A stretch of 64,000 nucleotides of DNA from the NCBI GenBank assembly GCA_017557435.1, contig JAFYYR010000003.1:186001-250000 (forward strand). Direction: 5' to 3'. The position numbers were made by a program, and so were the translations under genes. Shown piece after piece: positions 14,793 to 60,006 of this stretch (positions within the stretch are counted from its first letter, which is position 1; every line of letters starts with the position of its first letter). This stretch comes from Pseudobutyrivibrio sp. Its GTDB lineage: Bacteria; Bacillota; Clostridia; Lachnospirales; Lachnospiraceae. The notes under the pieces were generated by a model, which was not told where the DNA came from, ran no database searches, and saw only the letters and a program-made list of their open reading frames with translations.

Positions 14793-15722
14793 TCAATTTC
14801 TCTTTAGCCTTCTGCTAGGCTTTTTCTCATCATCTCTATTTACCATCTTGTAAACAAAGATACAAAGGATTCCACTAACGACAAACAAGTATACGGAAAG
14901 GGCACCTGCGCGACCGTAATCTGGGGCACGAAGCAGATTGTTAAGCCACATAATTAGAGTGTAGCTTGTACGGTTCGGATTACCTTGGCCGTTAGTGAGA
15001 ATCTGTGGTACATCAAACATCTGTAATCCACCAATCAACGAAGTGATAAGTGTGTAAGTCAGGATAGGTCTTATCAGCGGTAAAGTTATGTGGAAGAATG
15101 TTTGTCGAGGATTGCAACCATCTATCGACGCTGCTTCAAAGACATCCTGGCTAATTCCCATGATTGCGGCCATCAACATGATTGTTGTGTTACCAAACCA
15201 CATAAGGAAATTCATAAGTGCCACCAGAAGTCGTGTACCTGTAGGGGTTCCCATAAAATCAATCGGACCATTTACCAGCCCTAGGTTGGTAAGAATAGAG
15301 TTTACTGGTCCTGATGTTGAGAACAATGTAAAAAATAACATAGCGAATGCAGATGCCATGATAAGATTTGGTAAATATATCACCACCTTAAAAAACTGCT
15401 CACCGCGAATCTTAAGTCTTGCGTCAACAAACCATGATGCAAGCAAGAGGGCGATTACAATCTGTGGAACAAATCCGATTATCCATAAAATAAAAGTGTT
15501 TTTAAGGTAAGTAAAGAAATCAGGTCCCATAACACTGATATAGTTATCAAATCCCACGAAATTTGGTCCGATAGTACGGATTCCTGAGCGGTAATATTCA
15601 TAGAAACTATACCTAATCGTGTCTACAAGTGGCAGAAATGAAAAAATGAAATAAGTCACAAAGAAAGGCAGGATACAGATGTAGCCCCACTTTGCACGGC
15701 TTATACTTTTAGTTTTTTTCAT
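14793..15722 (-). CDS. ABC sugar transporter permease (MalF type)
   Basis: This 309-residue permease has six hydrophobic segments. The N-terminal stretch (KWGYICILPFFVTYFIFSF) is typical of CUT1 sugar permeases, and the EAA loop reads FEAASIDGCNPRQTFFHITL. It follows the binding-protein gene in the same operon, separated by a 133-base spacer that holds a structured RNA element. A TAGGAG-like ribosome binding site lies just before the start. Its partner permease follows directly. Confidence 0.88.
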   Translation of the reverse strand: MKKTKSISRAKWGYICILPFFVTYFIFSFLPLVDTIRYSFYEYYRSGIRTIGPNFVGFDNYISVMGPDFFTYLKNTFILWIIGFVPQIVIALLLASWFVDARLKIRGEQFFKVVIYLPNLIMASAFAMLFFTLFSTSGPVNSILTNLGLVNGPIDFMGTPTGTRLLVALMNFLMWFGNTTIMLMAAIMGISQDVFEAASIDGCNPRQTFFHITLPLIRPILTYTLITSLIGGLQMFDVPQILTNGQGNPNRTSYTLIMWLNNLLRAPDYGRAGALSVYLFVVSGILCIFVYKMVNRDDEKKPSRRLKRN

Positions 15723-15746
15723 AGCATTTATCTCCTAAAGAAATCT

Positions 15747-15835
15747 GCTGGTCACGGCTACAAGCCTGAGAGCCTCCCAGAGTCAGCATAAAAAGCTTCC
15801 CTCGGGAGACCTCAGAGCTTGATGCCTACCAGCTC
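15747..15835 (-). ncRNA. Structured intercistronic RNA element, copy 1
   Basis: This 89-base element lies between the binding-protein and permease genes, starting 20 bases after the stop codon. On the minus strand it folds as an outer stem GCTGGT/ACCAGC, a 3-by-3 internal loop, then CAAGC/GCTTG, one bulged T on each side in turn, CTGAG/CTCAG, GTCTCCC/GGGAGGC, and an apical part. A second copy with compensatory changes lies at 18221-18306. There is no T-run, so it is not a standard terminator. It may set the ratio of binding protein to permease, or be a ligand or protein-binding RNA. Confidence 0.7.
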
Positions 15836-15855
15836 ACTTAAAAATCTAAAAATTC

Positions 15856-17250
15856 CTATTCAGGCCAGTTCACAGCTGTTATCTCTGGATAGCGCTCTTT
15901 AATAGCGCGCTCGAAGTTAGCCTTTGCTGTATCGAAGTCTACCTGACCCTGGAAATAGTCACCGAATGAACTCTGGATAAGCTCTACGCAACCCTGATCA
16001 TATGGTGAAAGTGTTGTCATCTGGATTGATGAAGCTGCTGGCTGGAAGTACTTGAATGGGTTCTCGCCACCAAGGAACTCTGCTCCAAAGCTCTCATCAT
16101 TTGCGATTTCTTCCATACCTGACTGTGTATTTGTGAAATCAAGGTAATCCTTTGTAATCTGCATAAGGTTTTCCTTGTCAGCTGTTACAGCAAGCATGAT
16201 TTCCTTAACATGCTCAGCATTATCTGTACCTACACAACCGTGTACGAATGAACCACCCCAGTTAAATGCCTGTGGTCCGTCAGTTACAGCCCAAGCACCT
16301 GCTTCTCCATCCCAGTTTGGATTAAGAACGAAATCAATACCCCATGCTGGAAGTAAGAAACCAAATACCTTTGACTCAGAACTCATTGACTTGTTCCAAT
16401 CATCTGTCCACTGACCCTTGATGTTGCTGTCGATAAGACCAGCATCAAGCCATTCTTTTGAATCGTTAATCCAGTTGATAATCTGTGGATCTACGTTAAT
16501 CTCTGTGCTACCTTCCTCTACCCATGGAGCAGAAATGCTATTGCCATAAGCACGGAATGTATCTGCATATGTTGCAAATGTGTAGTAACCCTTTGCCTTA
16601 AGCTCCTCGCCTGCAGACTTCATCTTATCCCAGTCTGAGCAAAGTGCATGAATCTCATCTGGATCATCTGTTCCAAATGTATCAAGTGCGATGTCACGTC
16701 TGTATACGAAAAGACATGGGCAAGCCTGCCATGTAGAACCTCTCTGAACGCCATTAGCATCAGAAGCTACTGTCTTTGTGAAATCATACTGATCTGCTAA
16801 ATCCTTCTCTGGGTCAATGCCAAGCTCTGTAAGAGGAATAGCAATATCTGCCTCAGCATCTGTGTACTTTACAACATAATCTGTCTCTGAAAGGAACATA
16901 TCAATCTTGTCATCAGCTGCTGCTGAGCCCTGATTGAGAAGTGCCTCATCTAATTTCTTCTGGTACACACCATCCTGGTTAGGATTGATTGTCCAGTGAA
17001 TCTCTGCACCATCTGTAAGGTATGTGATTGTACCATCCTCAGATGTGTGATCTACCTTGTCATATACTGCCTCTACTCTTGTTCTGAACTCATCGTTCCA
17101 GCAGTAAATATTAATTACTTTTCCTTCTTCGCCTTCAGCCACATAGCCGCCATTGGCACCAGCATTTCCACCCTCTGGATTGCCCCCGCAAGCTGTGAGT
17201 CCTGCTACCATTGAAAGTGCAAGCGCAAGACTAACTACTCTTTTTTTCAT
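15856..17250 (-). CDS. ABC sugar transporter substrate-binding lipoprotein
   Basis: This protein of about 464 residues is a CUT1-type extracellular sugar-binding protein. It begins with a lipoprotein signal (MKKRVVSLALALSMV) and a lipobox ending in Cys21 (GLTACGG). The mature part has the usual two-lobed family pattern, including INIYCWNDEF near the start and a Trp-rich central part. I chose the Met at 17250, which has AAAGGAGG upstream. The binding protein is first in its operon, followed by the RNA element and two permeases. The divergent AraC gene is its likely regulator. Sugar identity is inferred from the neighbouring beta-glucoside enzymes. Confidence 0.9.
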   Translation of the reverse strand: MKKRVVSLALALSMVAGLTACGGNPEGGNAGANGGYVAEGEEGKVINIYCWNDEFRTRVEAVYDKVDHTSEDGTITYLTDGAEIHWTINPNQDGVYQKKLDEALLNQGSAAADDKIDMFLSETDYVVKYTDAEADIAIPLTELGIDPEKDLADQYDFTKTVASDANGVQRGSTWQACPCLFVYRRDIALDTFGTDDPDEIHALCSDWDKMKSAGEELKAKGYYTFATYADTFRAYGNSISAPWVEEGSTEINVDPQIINWINDSKEWLDAGLIDSNIKGQWTDDWNKSMSSESKVFGFLLPAWGIDFVLNPNWDGEAGAWAVTDGPQAFNWGGSFVHGCVGTDNAEHVKEIMLAVTADKENLMQITKDYLDFTNTQSGMEEIANDESFGAEFLGGENPFKYFQPAASSIQMTTLSPYDQGCVELIQSSFGDYFQGQVDFDTAKANFERAIKERYPEITAVNWPE

Positions 17251-17338
17251 TACGTTTTCCTCCTTTGATTGATAAATCAAGTATCTCTTAGACCTTTACT
17301 ATCTTAAGTTTCCATGATTTTTTTCTATATCAAATTCA

Positions 17339-17367
17339 TTGATAAAATACAAAATCCATGCTATTGT
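17339..17367 (+). promoter_or_regulatory. Probable promoter of the AraC regulator gene
   Basis: TTGATA (17339-17344) and TATTGT (17362-17367) are separated by 17 bases, about 60 bases before the chosen start at 17427. The -10 box is weak. Confidence 0.5.
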
Positions 17368-17426
17368 TTTTTTGTTTAATGAATTCACCGCTTATTAAAG
17401 CGTCTTTATATTTCGTGGAGGCAATC

Positions 17427-18203
17427 ATGACAGGTTCCAACAATTGGTTTGCAAATGAATATGATGATGAAAATGATATTCAAACTCACAATCATCAAAA
17501 CAGAGAATTGCTATTTTACCGCTATGTAGCAGAAGGTAATTTAGAGGAAATCCATAAGAATATTGAAAACCACGAGTTTTTAAATCCCAACGGAATAGGA
17601 AAATTATCTAGAGATATAGTTCAGAATTTTAAATATCATTTCGTAGTATCCATTGCCCTTATCACAAGACTTTGTGTGGACAACGGAATGGAAATGGAAA
17701 GAGCCTATCGCCTCAGCGATTTTTATATCCAAAAGCTTGACGATATTTCTAATCTTGAGGATTTGGAAAAGCTCCATGACAAGATGGTCTTAGACTATAC
17801 AAATAAGATGATTATCATCAATAGAAGTGCTAATCTGTCACGACCTATGACAGAGTGTTTGAATTACATTTACTCTCACCTAAAGGAGAGAATCACAGTT
17901 AAGGACTTAGCTGAATACACCAGCAATTCTGCCAGCTATATATCAAGACTTTTCAAGGAGGAGCTTGGCACATCCACCAGTGACTACATTCGCCAGGCCA
18001 AAATAGAAGCATCTAAAAATCTGCTTCGCTACAGCGAGTACTCACTGGCTGACATTGCAAATTATTTTTCATTTACATCCCAAAGTCACTTCAGCCAGCT
18101 TTTCCAAAAAGAAACTGGCCTAACACCAAAAAAGTACCGTGAAAAATTCTACGGTACTCACTGGAAGGGAACCCCTCGTGACATAATGAAAACTGAAGGC
18201 TAG
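17427..18203 (+). CDS. AraC family transcriptional regulator
   Basis: This protein of about 258 residues ends with a full AraC/XylS DNA-binding domain: two helix-turn-helix units (VKDLAEYTSNSASYISRLF and LADIANYFSFTSQSHFSQLF), closed by GLTPKKYRE. The N-terminal 150 residues match the one-domain sensory part seen in many Lachnospiraceae regulators of sugar loci, not a cupin arabinose domain. I chose the Met at 17427 because GGAGG precedes it; a longer open frame begins at 17358. It sits between the ABC importer and the GH94/GH3 operon, both on the other strand, so it probably activates one or both. Confidence 0.87.
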   Translation: MTGSNNWFANEYDDENDIQTHNHQNRELLFYRYVAEGNLEEIHKNIENHEFLNPNGIGKLSRDIVQNFKYHFVVSIALITRLCVDNGMEMERAYRLSDFYIQKLDDISNLEDLEKLHDKMVLDYTNKMIIINRSANLSRPMTECLNYIYSHLKERITVKDLAEYTSNSASYISRLFKEELGTSTSDYIRQAKIEASKNLLRYSEYSLADIANYFSFTSQSHFSQLFQKETGLTPKKYREKFYGTHWKGTPRDIMKTEG

Positions 18204-18220
18204 CCAGCATATCCTAGTCC

Positions 18221-18306
18221 GCTAGTTACGGTCACAAGCCTTAGAGTCTATTCTCTCGGCTAACACGCCTCGTTCATAGACCTAAGAGCTTGTTACCTAC
18301 CAGCTC
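18221..18306 (-). ncRNA. Structured RNA element, copy 2, after the GH94 gene
   Basis: This 86-base homologue of the element at 15747-15835 starts 17 bases after the GH94 stop codon. On the minus strand: outer stem GCTGGT/ACTAGC (one G-T pair), CAAGC/GCTTG, bulged T, CTTAG/CTAAG, GTCTAT/ATAGAC and a GGC/GCC apical stem. Stem positions that differ from copy 1 change as pairs. The G-T wobble fits only the minus-strand RNA, so it belongs to the GH3-GH94 transcript and not to the converging AraC transcript. Confidence 0.7.
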
Positions 18307-18323: not shown

Positions 18324-21029
18324 TTACCCTAACACCACCAGGATTTCGTTGTTCTCATGGTTCTCAACGTTTTTTTGAGGGATTAATATTTTATTGTTTT
18401 CTACAGCAAGCTTAACTCCATTTAAGCTTGCTTCTTTTATTTTGTATTCTCCAAATTGAAGCTTTGATGGGTTCGTATATACGATATCAAATCGCTTTTC
18501 TGCAAAGGTAAGATTAATACTTGCCTTGCCTTCTTCATCAAACTGCTCCTTTAATAGAGCAGGTTTAATCACAAGATTTCCAGCCTCTCCTTTTACACCG
18601 AATACCTCGGTAATCATTGTCAGCAGATACCATGATGCTGCGCCTGTCAGGTATGGATACTTTCCTCTACCTTTGCTGTCGAAATACTCTGGAATTCCAG
18701 GGTACATATGGCTGACATTAAAATTCATAGCTGTTGCAAAAAGGGCATTGAGTGATTTGAAACCTTCTTTTGCGAAACCTCTGCCATATAACGCATTTGC
18801 GTACATAACAGACATATGTGAAAATACCGCGCCATTTTCCTTCTCCCCGTAGGCGAATCCAAACATTCTGCCTAGGTCATATTTCACTTCTCCAAAATCT
18901 GTATTAAGTCGATAGCCACCAATGGCCTCCTTATACAGATAGTGATCAGCTGCTTTGACTATCTTATGAATCTGCTCGTCAGTTGCCACATTTCCCATAA
19001 TGGCAAAGACCTGACCAGTCAGCATCATGCGTGTTTCTTCATCAGAATTGCTAAAGCGCTCTACCATGCGACAGATGTCATCATAGTAACTATTGAACCA
19101 GCCTTCGCCTTTATTTCCCTCAAGCCACTCCTGGTTGTTAAGATGATTTGTCATCCACTGAGCCATGCTTTTAAGCTTTGCCACAAGCACATTTACAGGG
19201 ATAGAAGCTTGAGTTCCTTTAATACTTCCCTCACATGACTTACAGTATTCTGCAAGTCCATTAGTTTTGTCCTCTATCGAGTCATAACTATCTATATCTA
19301 GTAGACGCTTTAGCTCCGATGCAATGTGTATTTCGTCTATGCCATCTTCCTTTGACATTTTCAAAATCAAATCTGCCAACTCTGAAAGATTGCCAGCATA
19401 GGCGTAGGAGAATGCACTGGATTCACCATTTTTTGATGCCATATCTAGAGCGTCATTCCAATCTGCTCCTCGTAACTTAAGTACATTATGCTCCCCGACT
19501 TCATAAAAGGCACATAGATTTTCAACAAGCAGATGCTCAATTATGGAGCCAAGATATACACTTTCATCCTCTGTGTGCTGCTTGTTATCCACAACCTCAA
19601 ATTTTTTATCAACCACTGTGCCACGGCGGACAATTGAATCCTTAAAGTATGGAACTTTTTCCTTTAAAATGCCGTAATCACCTGTTTGATTTATGTATAA
19701 AAGCAGTGTTCTAAATGGCCAGAATGCATGGTCCATCCACACTCTTGCTATGCCATTTCTATCTGCAATAAAATTGCCAAGTCCCTCGCCGATGATTGTG
19801 GCATTGGTTCCATCCATGCGGACACCACCAAAATTGGCAACTATCATCTGACGTACATTGTCTGGCTCCATAAATAAAAGAGAAAGGCAATCTTGCCACA
19901 AGTCTCTCCAGCCTCTGCCACCTCTACCATAGTCGTGGTATGGCAAAAATGAACATCCGTAAACTCTACGAAGAAATGGCTGAAATGCCACCCAAGCCAT
20001 GAATTCATCAAAATTCTTATTACCTGTGTAGAAGCTTACATTCACCTTCTTCTGCCAGTAGTCTTTTGTGGACTGAAATTCCTTTTCCACAGCTGACATC
20101 AAAGCGTATTTCTTAGACAGTGCTTCTATCTCTTTTTCTTTATTTGTAACTCCAATTAGGATGTTGAAAGTAACACTTTTTTCAGGGGCAAGCTTCACCT
20201 TTGGAAATTTAAGTCCACCTACAGCCTCTAGACCAGCCAGTTTTTCTCCAGCCTTAAGGCCTTCTTCCTGTCTATATACAGACCGTGGCTTAAAAAAGCT
20301 TCCGCCCTCTCCCACAAATGATTCCACAGTAGGGAAAAATGATTCTGGAGTTCCACCATCTTCTCTATGGCCCACTACAAAATATGTATTTTCATTTGGG
20401 CGATGACCCTTTTCATCAAAAGACATGGTAGGCTTCACCAGCACTCCATCTTCCCTTGTGGTGATGCGATGGAGCATGGAAGTAACATTTCTGTGATCCC
20501 TTAAATTATCAGCTGAGCGACCATAGATTGGCACTGCTGCAATAGGTGTAATCAGCTTTGGTTCATCACCTATATTTTTAATAGTCACAGACATGATTTC
20601 TACATTTTCATTTACAGGTACAAAGGATAAAATCTCGGCACTGACACCGTAGCAATTGCTAATTCGACTAGCCTTGTGCCACATAAATCCAGCCTCCACC
20701 ACGCTATCATCCTGGTCCATTGTAAACTTCTGGCTCTCCTGCTCAGCTGATGAGCCTGTGGCAGACCACACTTTTCCGTCTTCCATATAAAGCCAAAAGT
20801 TTCTGGTATTTTTATTGTTGTGGAGATTTTCCACGCTAGTAGGCTCTAGGATAAATGTCTCCTGGTCCACCATTGAGTCACCACCTAGATTTGGTGTGAC
20901 GCTTGATTTAAGTCCCTGCTCTGATGCAATTGGAAAATACAGATAGCTTGTATCCTCTGGCTTTCCTATCTTGAATGAACCCTTATTATCCGTAAATACG
21001 ATTTTTCCCTTTGTACTGTTATTAAGCAT
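18324..21029 (-). CDS. GH94-type glycoside phosphorylase (beta-glucoside)
   Basis: This protein of about 901 residues has the N-terminal beta-sandwich pattern (RNFWLYMEDGKVWSATG) and the (alpha/alpha)6 catalytic core of GH94 phosphorylases: YGRGGRGWRDLWQDCL, then RGADWNDALDM with the likely general acid Asp523. Such enzymes split a beta-glucosidic bond with phosphate, giving glucose 1-phosphate and saving ATP. Its length is close to laminaribiose- and cellodextrin-type members, so beta-1,3 or beta-1,4 glucosides are candidates; the linkage cannot be decided here. There is no signal peptide, so it acts in the cytoplasm on sugars brought in by the nearby ABC importer. The Met at 21029 has AAGGGGA upstream and follows the GH3 gene by 16 bases. 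Confidence 0.8.
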   Translation of the reverse strand: MLNNSTKGKIVFTDNKGSFKIGKPEDTSYLYFPIASEQGLKSSVTPNLGGDSMVDQETFILEPTSVENLHNNKNTRNFWLYMEDGKVWSATGSSAEQESQKFTMDQDDSVVEAGFMWHKASRISNCYGVSAEILSFVPVNENVEIMSVTIKNIGDEPKLITPIAAVPIYGRSADNLRDHRNVTSMLHRITTREDGVLVKPTMSFDEKGHRPNENTYFVVGHREDGGTPESFFPTVESFVGEGGSFFKPRSVYRQEEGLKAGEKLAGLEAVGGLKFPKVKLAPEKSVTFNILIGVTNKEKEIEALSKKYALMSAVEKEFQSTKDYWQKKVNVSFYTGNKNFDEFMAWVAFQPFLRRVYGCSFLPYHDYGRGGRGWRDLWQDCLSLLFMEPDNVRQMIVANFGGVRMDGTNATIIGEGLGNFIADRNGIARVWMDHAFWPFRTLLLYINQTGDYGILKEKVPYFKDSIVRRGTVVDKKFEVVDNKQHTEDESVYLGSIIEHLLVENLCAFYEVGEHNVLKLRGADWNDALDMASKNGESSAFSYAYAGNLSELADLILKMSKEDGIDEIHIASELKRLLDIDSYDSIEDKTNGLAEYCKSCEGSIKGTQASIPVNVLVAKLKSMAQWMTNHLNNQEWLEGNKGEGWFNSYYDDICRMVERFSNSDEETRMMLTGQVFAIMGNVATDEQIHKIVKAADHYLYKEAIGGYRLNTDFGEVKYDLGRMFGFAYGEKENGAVFSHMSVMYANALYGRGFAKEGFKSLNALFATAMNFNVSHMYPGIPEYFDSKGRGKYPYLTGAASWYLLTMITEVFGVKGEAGNLVIKPALLKEQFDEEGKASINLTFAEKRFDIVYTNPSKLQFGEYKIKEASLNGVKLAVENNKILIPQKNVENHENNEILVVLG

Positions 21030-21045
21030 ACCAATCCCCTTGCTT

Positions 21046-23856
21046 TTAGTCTTCTCCCATTCTAGCAAACATAAGCCTGAATTCTTCCTCTCTGGATTTC
21101 ACTAATTCAAACTTAATATCCTTGATTTCCATTCCGTCCTGAGCGAAATAGAACTTCATGAAAAATGTCATTGCACATGCATCGAATGGAACTTCTATAG
21201 TCTGCCAATCTCTATCCTCTCCAGTGAGAGTAATCATTTTCACAAGTAATTTATCTCTGAAAATGCTAAGTGGTATCTGAGCAAGCTCACTTGTAGCATT
21301 TGCCCTTACAGTCATTTTCAGCATGTAATCTCCACGCTCCTTAAATGAAACTGTAAACATAGTAGTGCCATTTCTTCCTGTGTTAATATCAGCAGGATTG
21401 AGAGTTGCAATTCCTGTTTCATCAACATCGCAAAGCACCATCTTGTCGTATGCAAGCTCCTCATCGTCAGCTTCTTCAGCAAGCTTTTTATCTATGTCAT
21501 TGTCTCTATCAATGTAGCGGGCAAATACAGGCTTATTCATAATGAACTTGCAAATATTTGCAGCGCATCTTTGAAGCTCTTCTCGTGTGATATCACCTGT
21601 CTTTATTGCCTCTTCAAGATTGTCTTTATTTGTGTTAAGCAAAGCGTTTGCTGTAACCATGTACAAATCATTCTGGGCTCTGACAATAGCCGCCATATTT
21701 GAATTGTCACCATGGTAAGATATTCCGCCTTTTGCCCACCAGTCAGTCATTACGATTCCATCAAATCCCCATTCTTCTCTGAGAATTCTAGTGACTAAAT
21801 CATAGCTTGATGATGTGTAGTAACCATTTACAGAACCATAGGTGGTCATCACTGCGTGAGCGCCACCTTCTTTAACCGCCATTTCAAATCCCTTTAGATA
21901 GATTTCTCTAATGGCTCTAGCTGATGCTACGTGCTCAACTGTGTGTCGACCTGTCTCCTGAGTGTTAAGAGCAAAATGCTTGATTGTGCCTGTTACACCA
22001 TATTTGTGCATACCCTTAAGCTGGGCAATAGCATTTTTTCCTGTCACATAAGGGTCCTCTGAGAAATACTCAAAGTTACGTCCATTAAGTGGATGTCTAT
22101 GGATATTCATGCCAGGTCCAAGGAGCACATCTACTTTATTTTTTCTAACCTCTAGACCTTCCCAATTGTAAAGTTCCTCTGAAAGCTCCAGATTCCAGCC
22201 GCTGGCAAGGCATGCTCCATTTGGCATTGCAAATGCCTTTTTACCGCAGTCCATTCTGATTCCAGAAGGACCATCTGTACAGCATGCAACTGGGATTCCC
22301 TTTTCAAGGAGAGAATCTGTCACGCCACCAAATGCTCCACCACAACCAGGTGTTACCTTTGGAGAGCTCATTCCCTCACCACGAACTATGCAAAAGAGCT
22401 CTTCATTAGAAAGCTGAGAAATGAACTCTTCCATAGTGCATTTCTTTTCAAAAACATCTATGAGCTTAAGTCCGCTCTTATCTGATGCCATCTCCTTTGG
22501 CATTTCTTTGGCTCTAATATCATCTCCATCAACTGTAGCCTTTGGAACTGGCTCGTATGATACCTTAAATGTGCCATCCCCTTGTGGAGCTGGCTTCATT
22601 CTTGTGAAATCAACAACTGGTGCAAGGGCCTCTGAAAGCTGCTTTGCCACCCTTGTCTCAGCTGCGCTATAAACTCCTGCAATCTCTTCACAGCGAACAT
22701 TGTCACCCACATAAAATGTATATTCTCCAGCCTGTAATACATAGGCATTTTTATGTCCTGTAACTCCACTGTCATCGAAGCTAGATAATTGATATGAATT
22801 AAACTCAAAAGTAAGATCCTGTGACTGGCCAGGCTCAAGCTCCTTAGTTTTTCCATATGCCACAAGTTCTCTTACAGGATTTCCAAGAACTCCCTGTGGC
22901 TTTGAAACATAGACCTGAACAACCTGCTGTCCCTTTCTCTTACCAGTGTTTGTAACTGTAGCTGTGAAATAACCCTTGTCATCTTCACCTTCGAATTTCT
23001 TTGCTTCTATAGAAAATGTTGTGTATGACAAGCCAAATCCAAATGGATAAAGAACTTTATCCTTGGCAAATGTCTCAAAATATCTATAACCTACATAGAT
23101 ATCTTCCTGCTGAATATTGCACTTATCTCCACCGAAATTAGCGTCTGATGGGTAATCTGAAATATCTCTTGCGATTGTGTCTGTCAGTCTACCAGATGGA
23201 TTCACATCACCTGAAAGCACATCAAGTGCACCATTTCCACCTTCCTGACCGCCCTGCCAAATATATGCAACAGCGCTTGGATTGTACTCCTCAACCCACT
23301 TCATATCTATAATATTGCCTACATTTAAAAGAACTACTGTCTGCTTAAATGCGGCAGTTACATTTTTAAGAATCTCTCTCTCATCATCAGTAAGAAGATA
23401 GCTGCCCTGCTTATTGCTATTGTCCTGGTCCTCTCCAGCTGTACGTCCAATGAGCACAATTGCCACATCTGATTGTCCTGCAATTTCCTTGGCAAAATCT
23501 GCAGATATTGGCATCTCCTGCTGGAACCAAGGCTCTGAAGCCCATCCCTCTCCAGCCTCATAAGGATGATTCTTAATCCACTCATCGTAAGTATCCTTAA
23601 GCTTTGCATTAAGGGTAAATCTATCGTCAGACTCAAGTGCTTCACGGACACCTGTCACATAGGCAGTATTTACCATACCGCCTGAGCCAGTACCGCTTTT
23701 ATAGTAGTTAAACTGACTTCTACCAAACAGTGCAATTTTCGCACCCTTCTTAAGTGGAAGCACGTCATCATCATTTTTGAGTAATACTATTCCTTCTGCC
23801 ACAGCACGTCTTGCCACTGCTGCAAATTTTTCTACATCAAATAGTTTGTTGCTCAT
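21046..23856 (-). CDS. GH3 beta-glucosidase with reversed domain order
   Basis: This 936-residue cytoplasmic enzyme begins with the GH3 C-terminal sandwich domain (GIVLLKNDDDVLPL, IALFGRSQFNYYKSGTGSGG), goes on to a fibronectin-III-like domain, and only then has the (beta/alpha)8 barrel with nucleophile Asp705 (GIVMTDWWAKGG). Further barrel motifs are CTDGPSGIR, NIHRHPLNGRNFEYFSEDP, KHFALN and a C-terminal domain of about 130 residues. This permuted order is known from rumen beta-glucosidases of Butyrivibrio and Ruminococcus. No signal peptide is present. It starts 7 bases after GGAGG and is the first gene of the GH3-GH94 operon. Confidence 0.92.
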   Translation of the reverse strand: MSNKLFDVEKFAAVARRAVAEGIVLLKNDDDVLPLKKGAKIALFGRSQFNYYKSGTGSGGMVNTAYVTGVREALESDDRFTLNAKLKDTYDEWIKNHPYEAGEGWASEPWFQQEMPISADFAKEIAGQSDVAIVLIGRTAGEDQDNSNKQGSYLLTDDEREILKNVTAAFKQTVVLLNVGNIIDMKWVEEYNPSAVAYIWQGGQEGGNGALDVLSGDVNPSGRLTDTIARDISDYPSDANFGGDKCNIQQEDIYVGYRYFETFAKDKVLYPFGFGLSYTTFSIEAKKFEGEDDKGYFTATVTNTGKRKGQQVVQVYVSKPQGVLGNPVRELVAYGKTKELEPGQSQDLTFEFNSYQLSSFDDSGVTGHKNAYVLQAGEYTFYVGDNVRCEEIAGVYSAAETRVAKQLSEALAPVVDFTRMKPAPQGDGTFKVSYEPVPKATVDGDDIRAKEMPKEMASDKSGLKLIDVFEKKCTMEEFISQLSNEELFCIVRGEGMSSPKVTPGCGGAFGGVTDSLLEKGIPVACCTDGPSGIRMDCGKKAFAMPNGACLASGWNLELSEELYNWEGLEVRKNKVDVLLGPGMNIHRHPLNGRNFEYFSEDPYVTGKNAIAQLKGMHKYGVTGTIKHFALNTQETGRHTVEHVASARAIREIYLKGFEMAVKEGGAHAVMTTYGSVNGYYTSSSYDLVTRILREEWGFDGIVMTDWWAKGGISYHGDNSNMAAIVRAQNDLYMVTANALLNTNKDNLEEAIKTGDITREELQRCAANICKFIMNKPVFARYIDRDNDIDKKLAEEADDEELAYDKMVLCDVDETGIATLNPADINTGRNGTTMFTVSFKERGDYMLKMTVRANATSELAQIPLSIFRDKLLVKMITLTGEDRDWQTIEVPFDACAMTFFMKFYFAQDGMEIKDIKFELVKSREEEFRLMFARMGED

Positions 23857-30992: not shown

Positions 30993-31051
30993 AAAAAACC
31001 ATGTAGCAACAAGCTTTGACCTCTAATCAAAGCCTGTTTGCTTAACATGGT
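30993..31051 (-). terminator. Strong hairpin between binding-protein and permease genes
   Basis: A long imperfect stem (ACCATGT arms at 30998-31004 and 31045-31051, inner GCTTTGA/TCAAAGC) is followed on the minus strand by a run of T, 22 bases after the binding-protein stop codon. It should terminate or protect most transcripts, so the binding protein is made in excess of the permeases. A second small hairpin lies at 30950-30970. Confidence 0.75.
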
Positions 31052-43084: not shown

Positions 43085-44299
43085 TTATTCAGCTGTCTCT
43101 TCAGTTGATTCCTCTGGTGTCTCCTCAGAATCTGCTGCTGTGTCTTCTGTTGTTTCAGTAGTCTCAACCTCTTCAGCTGAATCAGTATCCTCTACTTCCT
43201 CTGTAGCTTCAGTTGACTCATCTGTAGCTTCTGTATCCTCTGCAGGTGCCTCTGATTCCTCAGCTGGCTCTGCTGGCTGCTCAACTGGCTTTGCCTTGAA
43301 GTGATCAGTAAATGTAACCTTAGCCCACTGATCATCATCAACAGTAAACTCATAAGCAGACATCCATGTATCTACAAGTGAATTGAATGCGTCTGTCTTA
43401 AGAGTTGATTTCTTGTCATTAGATGCATCCTCATCATGATCTGCAGTAAGGTGAATTACATAATAAACACCCTCAACATCGATTACATCGGAAGTCTCAC
43501 CCTCTTTAAGGGCCTCTGCAGCTGAGATAACCGCCATATCCATGGTGTCATCGGCCTCCTCACCCTTAAGGTAAGAATATGTGCTGCTTGTAAGCTCCTG
43601 ATTCTCTACCTCGGCATCAAAATCTGATGCTGCAGCAATGCTGTCAGCCTGATCCTTAAATGCTGCCAATTCCTCATCTGTGTACTCTGTAACTGTACCT
43701 GTAGTTGGGTCTGTTCCAGTAGTATCTATCTGTACATAAGAGAATGTACGCATCCAGCAGTCATCCTCTGAAATATTAGCTTCCTCGGCATCCTCTACAG
43801 CTGTCTCAACAAGCTTGTAGATTGTCTTCTCCTCAAGATATCTCTTAACATACTCCTCTGTCGCTCCAAGCTCCTCAAGTGTATCCTTAGAGTTATCTGA
43901 CATAAACTTTGCAGTAGCATCTGCAATAGCCTTATTCTGCTCATCTGAAAGAGTAATATTGTAATCAGCTGCATGCTGCTTTACAACATACATCTGCTCG
44001 ATATCTGTAATGATACCGCTTTTAGTCTGGTCCTCCATTGAATAACCAAGACCACCCATCATATCCTGAGACCACATAGTAGAAACATCATAGCCCATCA
44101 TTGGATAAAACTGCTCATATAGCGACTGCTGATAACGAGCAACGAAATTACCATAGCCAAGAGTGATTGTCTCTTTTGTGTTCTCCCCTTTTATAGTAAT
44201 TAATGTAGCGCTGTCCTTGATCTTATTACCACAACCTGTAAGAAGAACTGTACCTGCTAAAGCTGCCACACATGTTGTTTTTAATACTGCCTTTTTCAT
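43085..44299 (-). CDS. PrsA/SurA-like lipoprotein with an acidic tail
   Basis: This protein of about 404 residues starts with a lipoprotein signal and lipobox Cys23 (LLTGCGN), then a SurA-type N-terminal helical domain and a region like a parvulin isomerase (ALKEGETSDVIDVEGVYYVIHL). It probably helps fold exported proteins on the outer face of the membrane. The last 60 residues are almost only Glu, Thr, Ala, Asp, Ser and Pro, a repetitive acidic tail not needed for a foldase. I chose the Met at 44299, with GGAGG eleven bases upstream. It is first in the operon with the ABC exporter and murA. Confidence 0.8.
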   Translation of the reverse strand: MKKAVLKTTCVAALAGTVLLTGCGNKIKDSATLITIKGENTKETITLGYGNFVARYQQSLYEQFYPMMGYDVSTMWSQDMMGGLGYSMEDQTKSGIITDIEQMYVVKQHAADYNITLSDEQNKAIADATAKFMSDNSKDTLEELGATEEYVKRYLEEKTIYKLVETAVEDAEEANISEDDCWMRTFSYVQIDTTGTDPTTGTVTEYTDEELAAFKDQADSIAAASDFDAEVENQELTSSTYSYLKGEEADDTMDMAVISAAEALKEGETSDVIDVEGVYYVIHLTADHDEDASNDKKSTLKTDAFNSLVDTWMSAYEFTVDDDQWAKVTFTDHFKAKPVEQPAEPAEESEAPAEDTEATDESTEATEEVEDTDSAEEVETTETTEDTAADSEETPEESTEETAE

Positions 44300-58594: not shown

Positions 58595-59554
58595 TTAGTA
58601 TTTATACTTTAACTGGTAATACGTATCATCTGCTAAGTGATCCTTGATAGTGCTTGAATTAGCATAGGAACCAAGTGTTGGATCCATAAGAGTCCATTTG
58701 CTACCATCAAACTGAATCACCTTGTCTATCCATCCTGTTTCTTTTGTATATACAGAAATCCATGCGTGATATTCCGTACCGGCGTAACCAATCTCAAGTC
58801 TTGTAGGTATTCCCTGTGACCTGAGCATCGCACCCATTAAAGACGCATAATCAAAGCAAATACCTGTGCCTGTTGCAAGAGTATCATCTACATCTGGCAC
58901 ATAACCAGATTCAACAGTCTCTGCCTTGTCATAATCGTATTTGATGTTCTTGGTAACGTAATGATATACATTCTCCACCACATCTAAATCTGTGTCCGTG
59001 CCGGCCGCCAATTCCTGGCCTTTTTTTACCGCAGCAGAATTAGCTGTAAAATGCACGTATGCATTTGGATACAGATACGTACTATATTCATCTTTAAGGG
59101 TTACGTTCACCGATTGCGAAAATGCCATTGCATATTGATTATCATGCAGATTCTCGTAAACACCGATTTTGTATGTACCATTTCCCTCTGAAAGTGGAAA
59201 GACATCATAGGTGCCGTCCAAATCCATTAGGTAATTGTACGTGTTACCTGCTGGTGTTTCTATTAGCATTCTTACCTTAGCAGCCGAGCCTTTGTATGCA
59301 ACCATAACGTAGCCATCGCTGGCATTGCTTGCATCAATAGAAGCATCATCATTTTCGTAGACTTCCGTTCCACTGGCTTCAGGAGTAAGGACTCTTATGG
59401 TGTTGTCTCGAGTTCCTTGTTTTGACTCCTTAGCCTGTGCTCCACCTGATGATGAACCTGATTGGTCTTCAGTGGCTGGGCCTCCCATGGTTCCGCAGGC
59501 TGCTAAGCTAATGCATAGAACAATCAGTGAAAGCAAATTGCTAACCTTTCTCAT
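58595..59554 (-). CDS. Transglutaminase-like lipoprotein
   Basis: This 319-residue protein has a lipoprotein signal with lipobox Cys20 (ISLAAC) and a Ser/Gly/Gln-rich linker. The C-terminal half is a transglutaminase-like cysteine protease fold: catalytic Cys233 (GTGICFDYASLMGAML), His in GTEYHAWISVY and Asp in LMDPTLGSY. It could cut or cross-link proteins at the cell surface. Its place between the regulator part and the GspF gene suggests it processes the pilus or its target. Confidence 0.85.
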   Translation of the reverse strand: MRKVSNLLSLIVLCISLAACGTMGGPATEDQSGSSSGGAQAKESKQGTRDNTIRVLTPEASGTEVYENDDASIDASNASDGYVMVAYKGSAAKVRMLIETPAGNTYNYLMDLDGTYDVFPLSEGNGTYKIGVYENLHDNQYAMAFSQSVNVTLKDEYSTYLYPNAYVHFTANSAAVKKGQELAAGTDTDLDVVENVYHYVTKNIKYDYDKAETVESGYVPDVDDTLATGTGICFDYASLMGAMLRSQGIPTRLEIGYAGTEYHAWISVYTKETGWIDKVIQFDGSKWTLMDPTLGSYANSSTIKDHLADDTYYQLKYKY

Positions 59555-59580
59555 TTGCTTCCTCCAATGTCCCCTAATAT

Positions 59581-60006
59581 TTATTTTTTGTAGAGTATTC
59601 GATAAAGCTCAACGTCCCCGTTGAATTTAAATTCTTTATCGAGAGCAGAATCATAGACAGATCCTTGCATGGTACTATTATCACGGCCTACAACCATGAT
59701 AATAAATCCCTCTTCGCCGCCTAATAAATCCTTTACAGCAATTGAAGGCTTAAGCCCCTGCTTTAGCTTTATTTTCTTGGCTGGAACCTTGCAGCCTTTA
59801 AACTGTCTCTTGTTGATTTTACGAGCAGGGTAATTCAAACCATCAAGAACTTCTATTATTCTACAAAAAAGCTCTGGTAAATCTGTGAACTCCACCGGAT
59901 CTTTTTGAAATCTATGTGTAACTTTTCCAGAAAAGCCATCAACTTTCTTGTCAATAACAACACCTATGCAGTTGGCAGCTCTTCCCATCCTAGCTGAAAT
60001 GGCCAT
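59581..60006 (-). CDS. Hypothetical protein, 141 residues
   Basis: I do not recognise this protein. It is soluble and basic in the middle (RKINKRQFKGCKVPAKKIKLKQG), has no signal peptide and no membrane segment. Its ATG overlaps the stop codon of the BTAD-type regulator gene by one base, so it is made together with it. It may act with the regulator or be a cytoplasmic pilus factor. Confidence 0.55.
   Translation of the reverse strand: MAISARMGRAANCIGVVIDKKVDGFSGKVTHRFQKDPVEFTDLPELFCRIIEVLDGLNYPARKINKRQFKGCKVPAKKIKLKQGLKPSIAVKDLLGGEEGFIIMVVGRDNSTMQGSVYDSALDKEFKFNGDVELYRILYKK

Follow-up and report, generated by a model that had tools for sequence, protein, structure and literature searches.

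A covarying, interspersed RNA element at gene junctions of Pseudobutyrivibrio genomes and its possible role between cistrons

What kind of element recurs twice within a single locus of a bacterial genome as a long, imperfect palindrome that differs in sequence between its copies? The question is raised by a window of 64,000 nucleotides from Pseudobutyrivibrio sp. (Lachnospiraceae; assembly GCA_017557435.1, contig JAFYYR010000003.1, positions 186,001 to 250,000 of the forward strand), in which one element occupies positions 15746 to 15835 (copy 1, read from 15835 to 15746 on the minus strand) and a second, homologous element positions 18220 to 18306 (copy 2, read from 18306 to 18220 on the same strand). 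A first-pass annotation had described both as structured RNA of a beta-glucoside sugar locus and offered, unranked, three explanations: an element of mRNA processing or stability, the site of an RNA-binding regulator, or a small mobile palindrome. The analysis reported here puts at about an even chance the reading that the two copies belong to an interspersed structured RNA element, one that would act as a barrier to mRNA decay or as a processing point and would have spread as a mobile repeat. The structure of the element can be read from its many copies; its function is inferred.

The structure of the two window copies agrees in most respects with what had been proposed. The motifs described as common to both are all present, on the minus strand and where they had been placed. 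The minus strand of copy 1 is predicted to fold at -53.2 kcal/mol (z -6.07) and that of copy 2 at -40.9 kcal/mol (z -4.61), and none of 200 shuffles was as stable in either case. Because the elements are palindromes, the plus strands also fold strongly (copy 1, -44.2, z -5.66; copy 2, -33.9, z -4.40, with 1 of 200 shuffles as stable). The RNAalifold consensus of the two copies contains 27 pairs, 6 of which are changed on both sides with pairing retained, bearing out the compensatory changes already noticed. As for the common fold, its stems hold, and what had been drawn as a 3-by-3 internal loop has to be redrawn: between the outer stem P1 and the CAAGC/GCTTG helix lie a 1x3 loop (A facing GUA), a covarying helix of three pairs and a 2x2 loop. 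In copy 1, the 5' arm of P1 (GCTGGT, 15828-15833, alignment columns 3-8) pairs with the 3' arm (ACCAGC, 15747-15752, assigned from the 19-copy covariation alignment described below). Its unpaired A stands at 15827, opposite GUG at 15753-15755, where the family consensus is GUA, and a U at 15816 is bulged between helices P3 (CAAGC/GCUUG) and P4; these three features are identified by the conservation counts given below. In copy 2, GCTGGT at 18299-18304 pairs with ACTAGC at 18221-18226, and its sequence together with the same counts places GUA at 18227-18229. All of these features are on the minus strand.

Alignment of further copies gives this structure most of its weight. BLAST of the host genome yielded more copies, 19 of which, picked by DNA similarity and including both window copies, were aligned; a consensus structure was drawn by hand from inspected folds, and a covariance model of 88 positions (R1) was built. 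The window copies are among the training rows, and their model scores (93.5 bits, E 4.6e-26 in the window, for copy 1; 92.0 bits, E 1.3e-25, for copy 2) are partly so by construction. In the 19-copy alignment 94.9% of 587 cells are paired and 24 of 31 pairs show double changes; the covariation score is 0.495, whereas shuffles score 0.177 (sd 0.014) and slid partners no more than 0.095. Compensated change is seen in most stem pairs, helix P3 being nearly constant. The outer stem P1 differs among copies yet stays paired (100% of cells, with 5 of 6 pairs changed on both sides), GCTGGT/ACCAGC being common. Beyond it, two flank types recur among 175 copies, GA..GG (60) and TA..GAG (20), which may be markers of subfamilies; a helix extending past P1 was tested for and is not claimed, as pairing is near expectation within each flank type (60 and 20 of the 175 rows).

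The unpaired positions are nearly fixed. Conservation was counted in two sets of distinct rows: 107 from other strains, left of 109 matches after removal of an antisense reading and a duplicate, and 72 host rows (78 matches less two antisense readings, a match at 30997 in the window, the two lowest-scoring others at 31.5 and 26 bits, and one duplicate). The A of the 1x3 loop is present in 107/107 other-strain and 70/72 host rows, the bulged U (T in the DNA) in 106/107 and 70/72, and the facing GUA almost as uniformly (G 107/107 and 70/72; U 107/107 and 71/72; A 101/107 and 70/72). The paired cells also reveal which strand is folded. A G-T combination on one strand is A-C on the other, and on the sense strand G-U exceeds A-C by 77 to 6 in the 72 host rows and by 75 to 18 in the 107 others, in alignments fitted to a model that itself favours G-U over A-C; the orientation of each copy was set mainly by the asymmetric conserved loops. 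Selection on a double-stranded palindrome would give near-equal counts, and this excess therefore indicates that the sense strand folds. Both the structure of the element and its folding strand are well supported by these alignments, and the proposal of a structured RNA read from the minus strand, with compensatory changes, is upheld. Over orthologous pairs with element identity above 0.6, the changes at paired positions comprise 150 that are compensated and 42 one-sided ones that keep a standard pair, besides 64 pairs broken by one side and 18 changed on both without pairing.

Neither the host genome nor the genus is short of copies. The first-pass annotation had suggested a search with a covariance model, and R1 finds 75 matches in the host at E<=1 and 74 at E<=0.01, with stems conserved; three of the 74 are shorter than 70 nt (45, 64 and 66 nt). 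The shortest (host genome G000, C25:86511-86555) is a minimal form reduced to the outer stem, both core loops and CAAGC/GCTTG. Divergence among host copies is strong, with a median pairwise identity of 0.65 and a highest of 0.91 (copies of 80 nt or less left out). Matches occur in 28 of 29 Pseudobutyrivibrio genomes, host included, and in all 21 assemblies of the genus with completeness of 90% or more and contamination of 5% or less. Element-bearing genomes hold from 1 to at least 137 copies, the highest counts being lower bounds, with 150 candidates scored per genome. R1 found the element in none of 16 other genomes of the order, in none of 248 genomes of the family's other genera (17 candidates scored each), and in none of 39 of those family genomes searched again with 110 candidates scored each. 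A pattern scan of named genomes returned at least 80 stretches, all from Pseudobutyrivibrio among the matches listed. The element is found so far only in Pseudobutyrivibrio among the genomes searched.

This distribution does not support a tie to the sugar locus. Copies adjoin amino-acid, nucleotide, glycolysis, fatty-acid, flagellar and aspartate-tRNA-ligase genes, and the elements are therefore not a feature of the beta-glucoside locus; their shared placing there is incidental to a family that is genome- and genus-wide. Several junctions join functional partners: hom-thrH, leuB-ilvD-ilvB, pyrC-pyrF, flgF-flgG, gapA-pgk (pgk partial), purM-purN, fabF-fabZ and a sugar binding protein with its ATPase. 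Also beside elements are serC, asnB, ispG-polC, glf-rmlA and aspS. These names come from a family scan of 26 neighbouring proteins chosen by the analyst plus four window genes, in which some matches score less than the curated cut-off of the model, and no match was obtained for a few neighbours. A sugar-specific regulon was rejected, since the scanned neighbours span unrelated functions.

Most copies lie between neighbouring genes of one strand. Gene positions were taken from a simple open-reading-frame caller without annotation, and a called frame of 60 codons or more overlaps 12 of the 74 host copies. Fifty of the 74 are sense to both neighbours, 13 antisense, 8 convergent and 1 divergent, and 2 lack one neighbour; in tandem contexts 50 of 63 are thus sense (p 3e-6). 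Further copies, 108 in number, come from other-strain loci chosen by near-consensus pattern; 14 copies were set aside, 6 for lying at a locus end, 7 for want of a neighbour and 1 for falling within a frame, and the remainder comprise 58 sense, 22 antisense (58/80 tandem sense, p 7e-5), 13 convergent and 1 divergent. Where host copies are sense to both neighbours and overlap no frame, the next start lies at a median of 23 nt and within 50 nt in 33 of 40 cases; in the 58 sense copies of other strains the median is 27 nt, with 35 within 50 nt. A Shine-Dalgarno-like motif lies within 45 nt downstream in 34 of the 50 sense/sense host copies. As originally given, copy 1 of the window begins 20 nt after a stop codon and copy 2 begins 17 nt after one. 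Elements also occur as inverted pairs in G000, at C24:43822-43909 and 43916-44002, 6 nt apart in the ilvD-ilvB gap, and at C18:59407-59493 and 59504-59591, 10 nt apart.

At the junction of copy 1, the element appears to be exchangeable for a simpler structure. Twelve genomes are comparable there (G024 was set aside because its permease match is missing). The element is present in three (G000, G013 and G003; the host and G013 are 96% identical at this locus), a simple GC-rich hairpin in eight, and neither in G004. In the eight relatives with the simple hairpin (L211, L212, L213 and L215-L219), the gap between binding protein and permease holds a sequence such as GGGGCAGGC..GCCTGCCCC, which lies 7 to 9 nt before AGGAG and is followed by short T-rich stretches. 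A tree of flanking-gene fragments joins G003 (support 0.82) to G291, a genome with the simple hairpin, and places G000 with G013 elsewhere; the element therefore arrived at this junction at least twice or was often lost.

Position before a start, preference for the sense orientation, pairing specific to one strand and, at one junction, interchange with a simple hairpin are the reasons for favouring a barrier or processing point between cistrons. The element would be transcribed within a polycistronic mRNA, co-transcription being suggested by gene order, and its RNA would fold into a long interrupted hairpin, mostly between a stop codon and the start of the next cistron and sometimes at the 3' end of a gene pair. 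There the hairpin might stop ribonucleases or mark a processing point (segmental mRNA stability), and neighbouring cistrons would thereby reach different mRNA levels. The element itself would have reached these junctions as a mobile palindromic repeat. A mere decay barrier does not explain the near-invariant loop bases, and for this reason a specific partner is worth looking for; the A/GUA loop and the bulged U suggest a ribonuclease or an RNA-binding protein.

The palindromic mobile character that had been among the original proposals is borne out by genome comparisons. Between strains, the leuB-ilvD junction is empty in YE44 and the fabF-fabZ junction in P. ruminis DSM 9787. Among the 182 matches used for the analyses of nesting, orthologues and inversion (74 host and 108 others), 7 elements lie inside the two halves of another under a strict test, where 0.47 are expected and the maximum in 200 permutations is 3. 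The host copy C11:36733 stands in the opposite orientation to its counterpart in P. xylanivorans MZ8, an inversion in place with the outer arms as hinge; this is the only case claimed from 17 candidates in 87 collinear pairs, most of the other candidates having been rejected for a second copy nearby or poor junctions. Empty sites, nesting and one inversion together show that the element is mobile. The filled/empty alignments contain no clean target-site duplication, the flanks being too diverged to exclude one. Two mobilisers were sought, by one family each, which leaves room for other enzymes. The Y1 transposase PF01797 was not detected in the host assembly (96.2% complete) nor in 18 of the 28 other genomes of the genus, being found in 10 of 29, and the element-rich genomes G012, G013, G018 and G021 (59-99 copies) have no match to it. 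The reverse transcriptase PF00078, found in 15 of 29 genus genomes, was not found in G000 nor in the element-rich G012, G014 and G021; spread by a host-encoded reverse transcriptase was rejected on this basis. Carriage in viral contigs was likewise rejected as far as one exact pattern tells, with 0 matches.

Several observations weigh against a role between cistrons. The 13 of 74 host and 22 of 108 other copies that are antisense to both neighbours would not have their folding strand supplied by the host operon. The 13 host copies of this kind keep the structure nonetheless (96.4% of cells paired; G-U 7, A-C 2), so that structure is not kept only where neighbours read the element in sense. At the site inverted in place, orientation is not essential. 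Copy number is patchy, with 0 in G020, 1 in G007 and 7 in G004 (assemblies 82-86% complete). A T run directly follows 5 of the 8 convergent host copies, where a role as terminator would also fit. Of 48 orthologous pairs, not independent of one another, only 22 have an element more alike than its flanks, and purifying selection beyond that on the flanks is thus not general. Finally, in 13 orthologous pairs between the host and MZ8, the orthologue is the closest host copy in 10 (0.86-1.0), and the other three differ strongly (0.72-0.75, ranks 12-23), as if the copy had been replaced or its pairs had changed very fast. In the ispG-polC gap of these two close genomes (C26:193777, L047, compared with MZ8 L137:278-365), several stem pairs differ on both sides while unpaired and flanking bases are alike; replacement, gene conversion or hairpin-templated change could account for this.

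Because of the intact antisense minority, the uneven copy number, the inversion and the mixed picture of conservation, the explanation stays alive that the element is a selfish palindrome resembling a miniature inverted-repeat transposable element (MITE), of no use to the host, whose hairpin serves its own spread and whose placing reflects insertion where least harm is done. Presence and absence at the same junction between relatives, the excess of nesting, tandem and inverted pairs, genomes ranging from 0 to at least 137 copies, the single copy between divergent genes in each set, and the 26 of 48 pairs in which elements are no more conserved than flanks are all as such a repeat would have them. 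The BOX, RUP and SPRITE repeats were moreover judged parasitic by their authors (PMC3049150, in part). Against this, stems and loops are kept in copies that are very diverged, and the excess of G-U over A-C speaks for RNA that is single-stranded and of one strand. Some orthologous copies are conserved beyond their flanks: the element is the more alike in 14 of 16 pairs with about 90% or more element identity. In the host assembly, Y1 transposase and reverse transcriptase, the two mobilisers to which the search was confined, were not found. An entirely selfish element is considered rather unlikely, and an mRNA element and a mobile repeat, two of the three alternatives first offered, may both hold.

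A binding site for a specific RNA-binding regulator or antiterminator, uniting the element-bearing operons in one regulon, draws on the resemblance of the near-invariant A, GUA and bulged U, set amid covarying stems, to a recognition site. It is decidedly improbable, as the scanned flanking genes have no common theme. Still more doubtful are internal partial terminators, with full terminators at the ends of gene pairs. Such a role would suit the convergent copies just mentioned, the 5 of 50 sense/sense host copies directly followed by a T run, copies at the tips of T-run hairpins, the short T-rich stretches after the simple hairpins at the copy-1 junction, and a type of junction shared with the stem-loops of Ruminiclostridium, a cellulolytic clostridium (PMC9045158, in part). 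On the other side, 45 of the 50 sense/sense host copies have no T run, and a consensus scan finds neither a T run after either window copy, as had been noticed at the outset, nor a terminator-like site at either; a plain terminator was rejected for these two. Two copies elsewhere (L193:1571-1658 and L145:7335-7423) lie at the tip of T-run, terminator-like stems, as if inserted in a terminator loop. A small self-cleaving ribozyme that would cut the mRNA between cistrons is scarcely credible in spite of the near-invariant internal-loop bases and the minimal 45-nt core form, as the element matches no Rfam family, ribozymes included, and ribozymes seldom take the shape of a plain two-strand hairpin.

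In the window itself, copy 1 sits between a lipoprotein-like gene upstream (15856 to 17280, minus strand) and the first permease gene (14793 to 15722, minus strand; ABC permease, PF00528, E 2.2e-11). The label of binding protein for the former derives from a lipobox-like start and its position only, and neither Pfam nor NCBIfam gives a match to it at the thresholds applied. Copy 2 lies 3' of a GH94-family gene (18324 to 21068, minus strand; PF17167, 5.4e-32; PF06165, 1.6e-12) and is convergent with a gene for an AraC-family regulator (17358 to 18203, plus strand; PF12833, 1.2e-19). A weak partial third match at 30997 to 31051 on the plus strand (22.4 bits, E 4.2e-4 for the window) falls inside a T-run, terminator-like hairpin in the gap between two minus-strand frames and is a decayed copy or chance.

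A bolder form of the favoured reading can be put forward, speculative and distinctly unlikely as it is: a mobile RNA module would have been domesticated throughout the genus as a splitter of operons, its near-invariant A/GUA loop and bulged U would dock a trans-acting factor by which mRNA is cut or shielded between cistrons, and its spread and turnover would follow an RNA- or hairpin-dependent route for which the host need encode neither a Y1 transposase nor a reverse transcriptase. If the favoured reading itself is right, most Pseudobutyrivibrio genomes would share one removable RNA module at dozens of their junctions, those of central metabolism and sugar uptake alike, and these junctions would amount to natural, replicated experiments on how intercistronic structure sets gene dosage inside operons. 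With copies only about 65% alike and their pairs kept, the structure is readable from sequence alone; the near-invariant loop offers a bait for a factor that reads the element, and the element's route of spread, no REP-type transposase having been found in the host, is a testable question.

Comparison with known systems places the element among interspersed structured repeats. Rfam gives 0 matches in the window, in agreement with the first-pass annotation, which had recognised no known family, and at five host loci (E<=1) nothing but mir-498, whose 26.5 bits fall short of its cut-off of 85; known RNA families were rejected, there being no match at the gathering score. An intrinsic terminator has a GC-rich hairpin with a T run at once, found at neither window element, and a MITE has terminal inverted repeats of fixed sequence, whereas the outer stem here varies between copies and stays paired. 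The sense placing between same-strand neighbours expected of an intercistronic stabiliser or processing element is seen in the 50/63 and 58/80 tandem copies. An integron attC site has R boxes at both ends and belongs to a cassette array with an integrase. Such a site is unlikely here, the copies being dispersed between metabolic genes; no integrase search was made.

Repetitive extragenic palindromes (REP) mobilised by RAYT transposases share with the element many copies per genome, an extragenic and palindromic nature and inverted pairs (PMC2817692, PMC3733652, in part). As in REP, GTAG precedes the palindrome (G 106/107 other-strain and 68/72 host rows; T 106/107 and 72/72; A 107/107 and 70/72; G 103/107 and 59/72). 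Unlike in REP, this GTAG lies inside an additional paired outer stem of variable sequence, and the copies differ widely and covary. REP sequences are 20-40 bp long (PMC2817692, PMC3733652, in part) as against 88 model positions here. A REP/RAYT system was rejected because no PF01797 match was found in the host or in 18 of 28 others. BOX, RUP and SPRITE, compared by description only, are likewise interspersed, confined to a few related species and strongly structured as predicted RNA, pneumococcal BOX being modular with a variable middle (PMC3049150, in part); the Pseudobutyrivibrio element differs from them in having no fixed end sequence, its outer stem varying while paired. The bcr repeats of the Bacillus cereus group, also compared by description only, are intergenic and Gram-positive as here; about half are transcribed, in untranslated regions or operon gaps, some with conserved RNA structure (PMC3446304, in part). 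ERIC and Correia elements have been reported to cause or mark mRNA cleavage (PMC3049150, in part). Similar in proposed effect are the stem-loops after binding-protein genes in Ruminiclostridium that are reported to set the stoichiometry of ABC transporters (PMC9045158, in part), and with them selective RNA processing and stabilisation (PMC4423207, in part). The stem-loops occupy the same place in the operon, and the relatives' simple hairpin at the copy-1 gap resembles them; they belong to individual importer operons, however, as internal terminators with U-containing tracts, and do not form one dispersed family (PMC9045158, in part).

No report of such a repeat in Pseudobutyrivibrio or Lachnospiraceae was found in the open-licence literature searched. 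Butyrivibrio is not named in the main text of RepRanger (PMC12306157), a GTAG/CGTC survey (PMC3733652) or a 40-genome stem-loop survey (PMC2267715), and Lachnospir- is absent from the main text of the first and last of these. Further copies exist, their stems are kept, and no described family was matched in Rfam or the literature searched (repeat databases were not searched). The kind of element, an interspersed structured repeat, is known; within the Rfam and literature searches, a family with this covarying, strand-specific and operon-internal form appears to be new.

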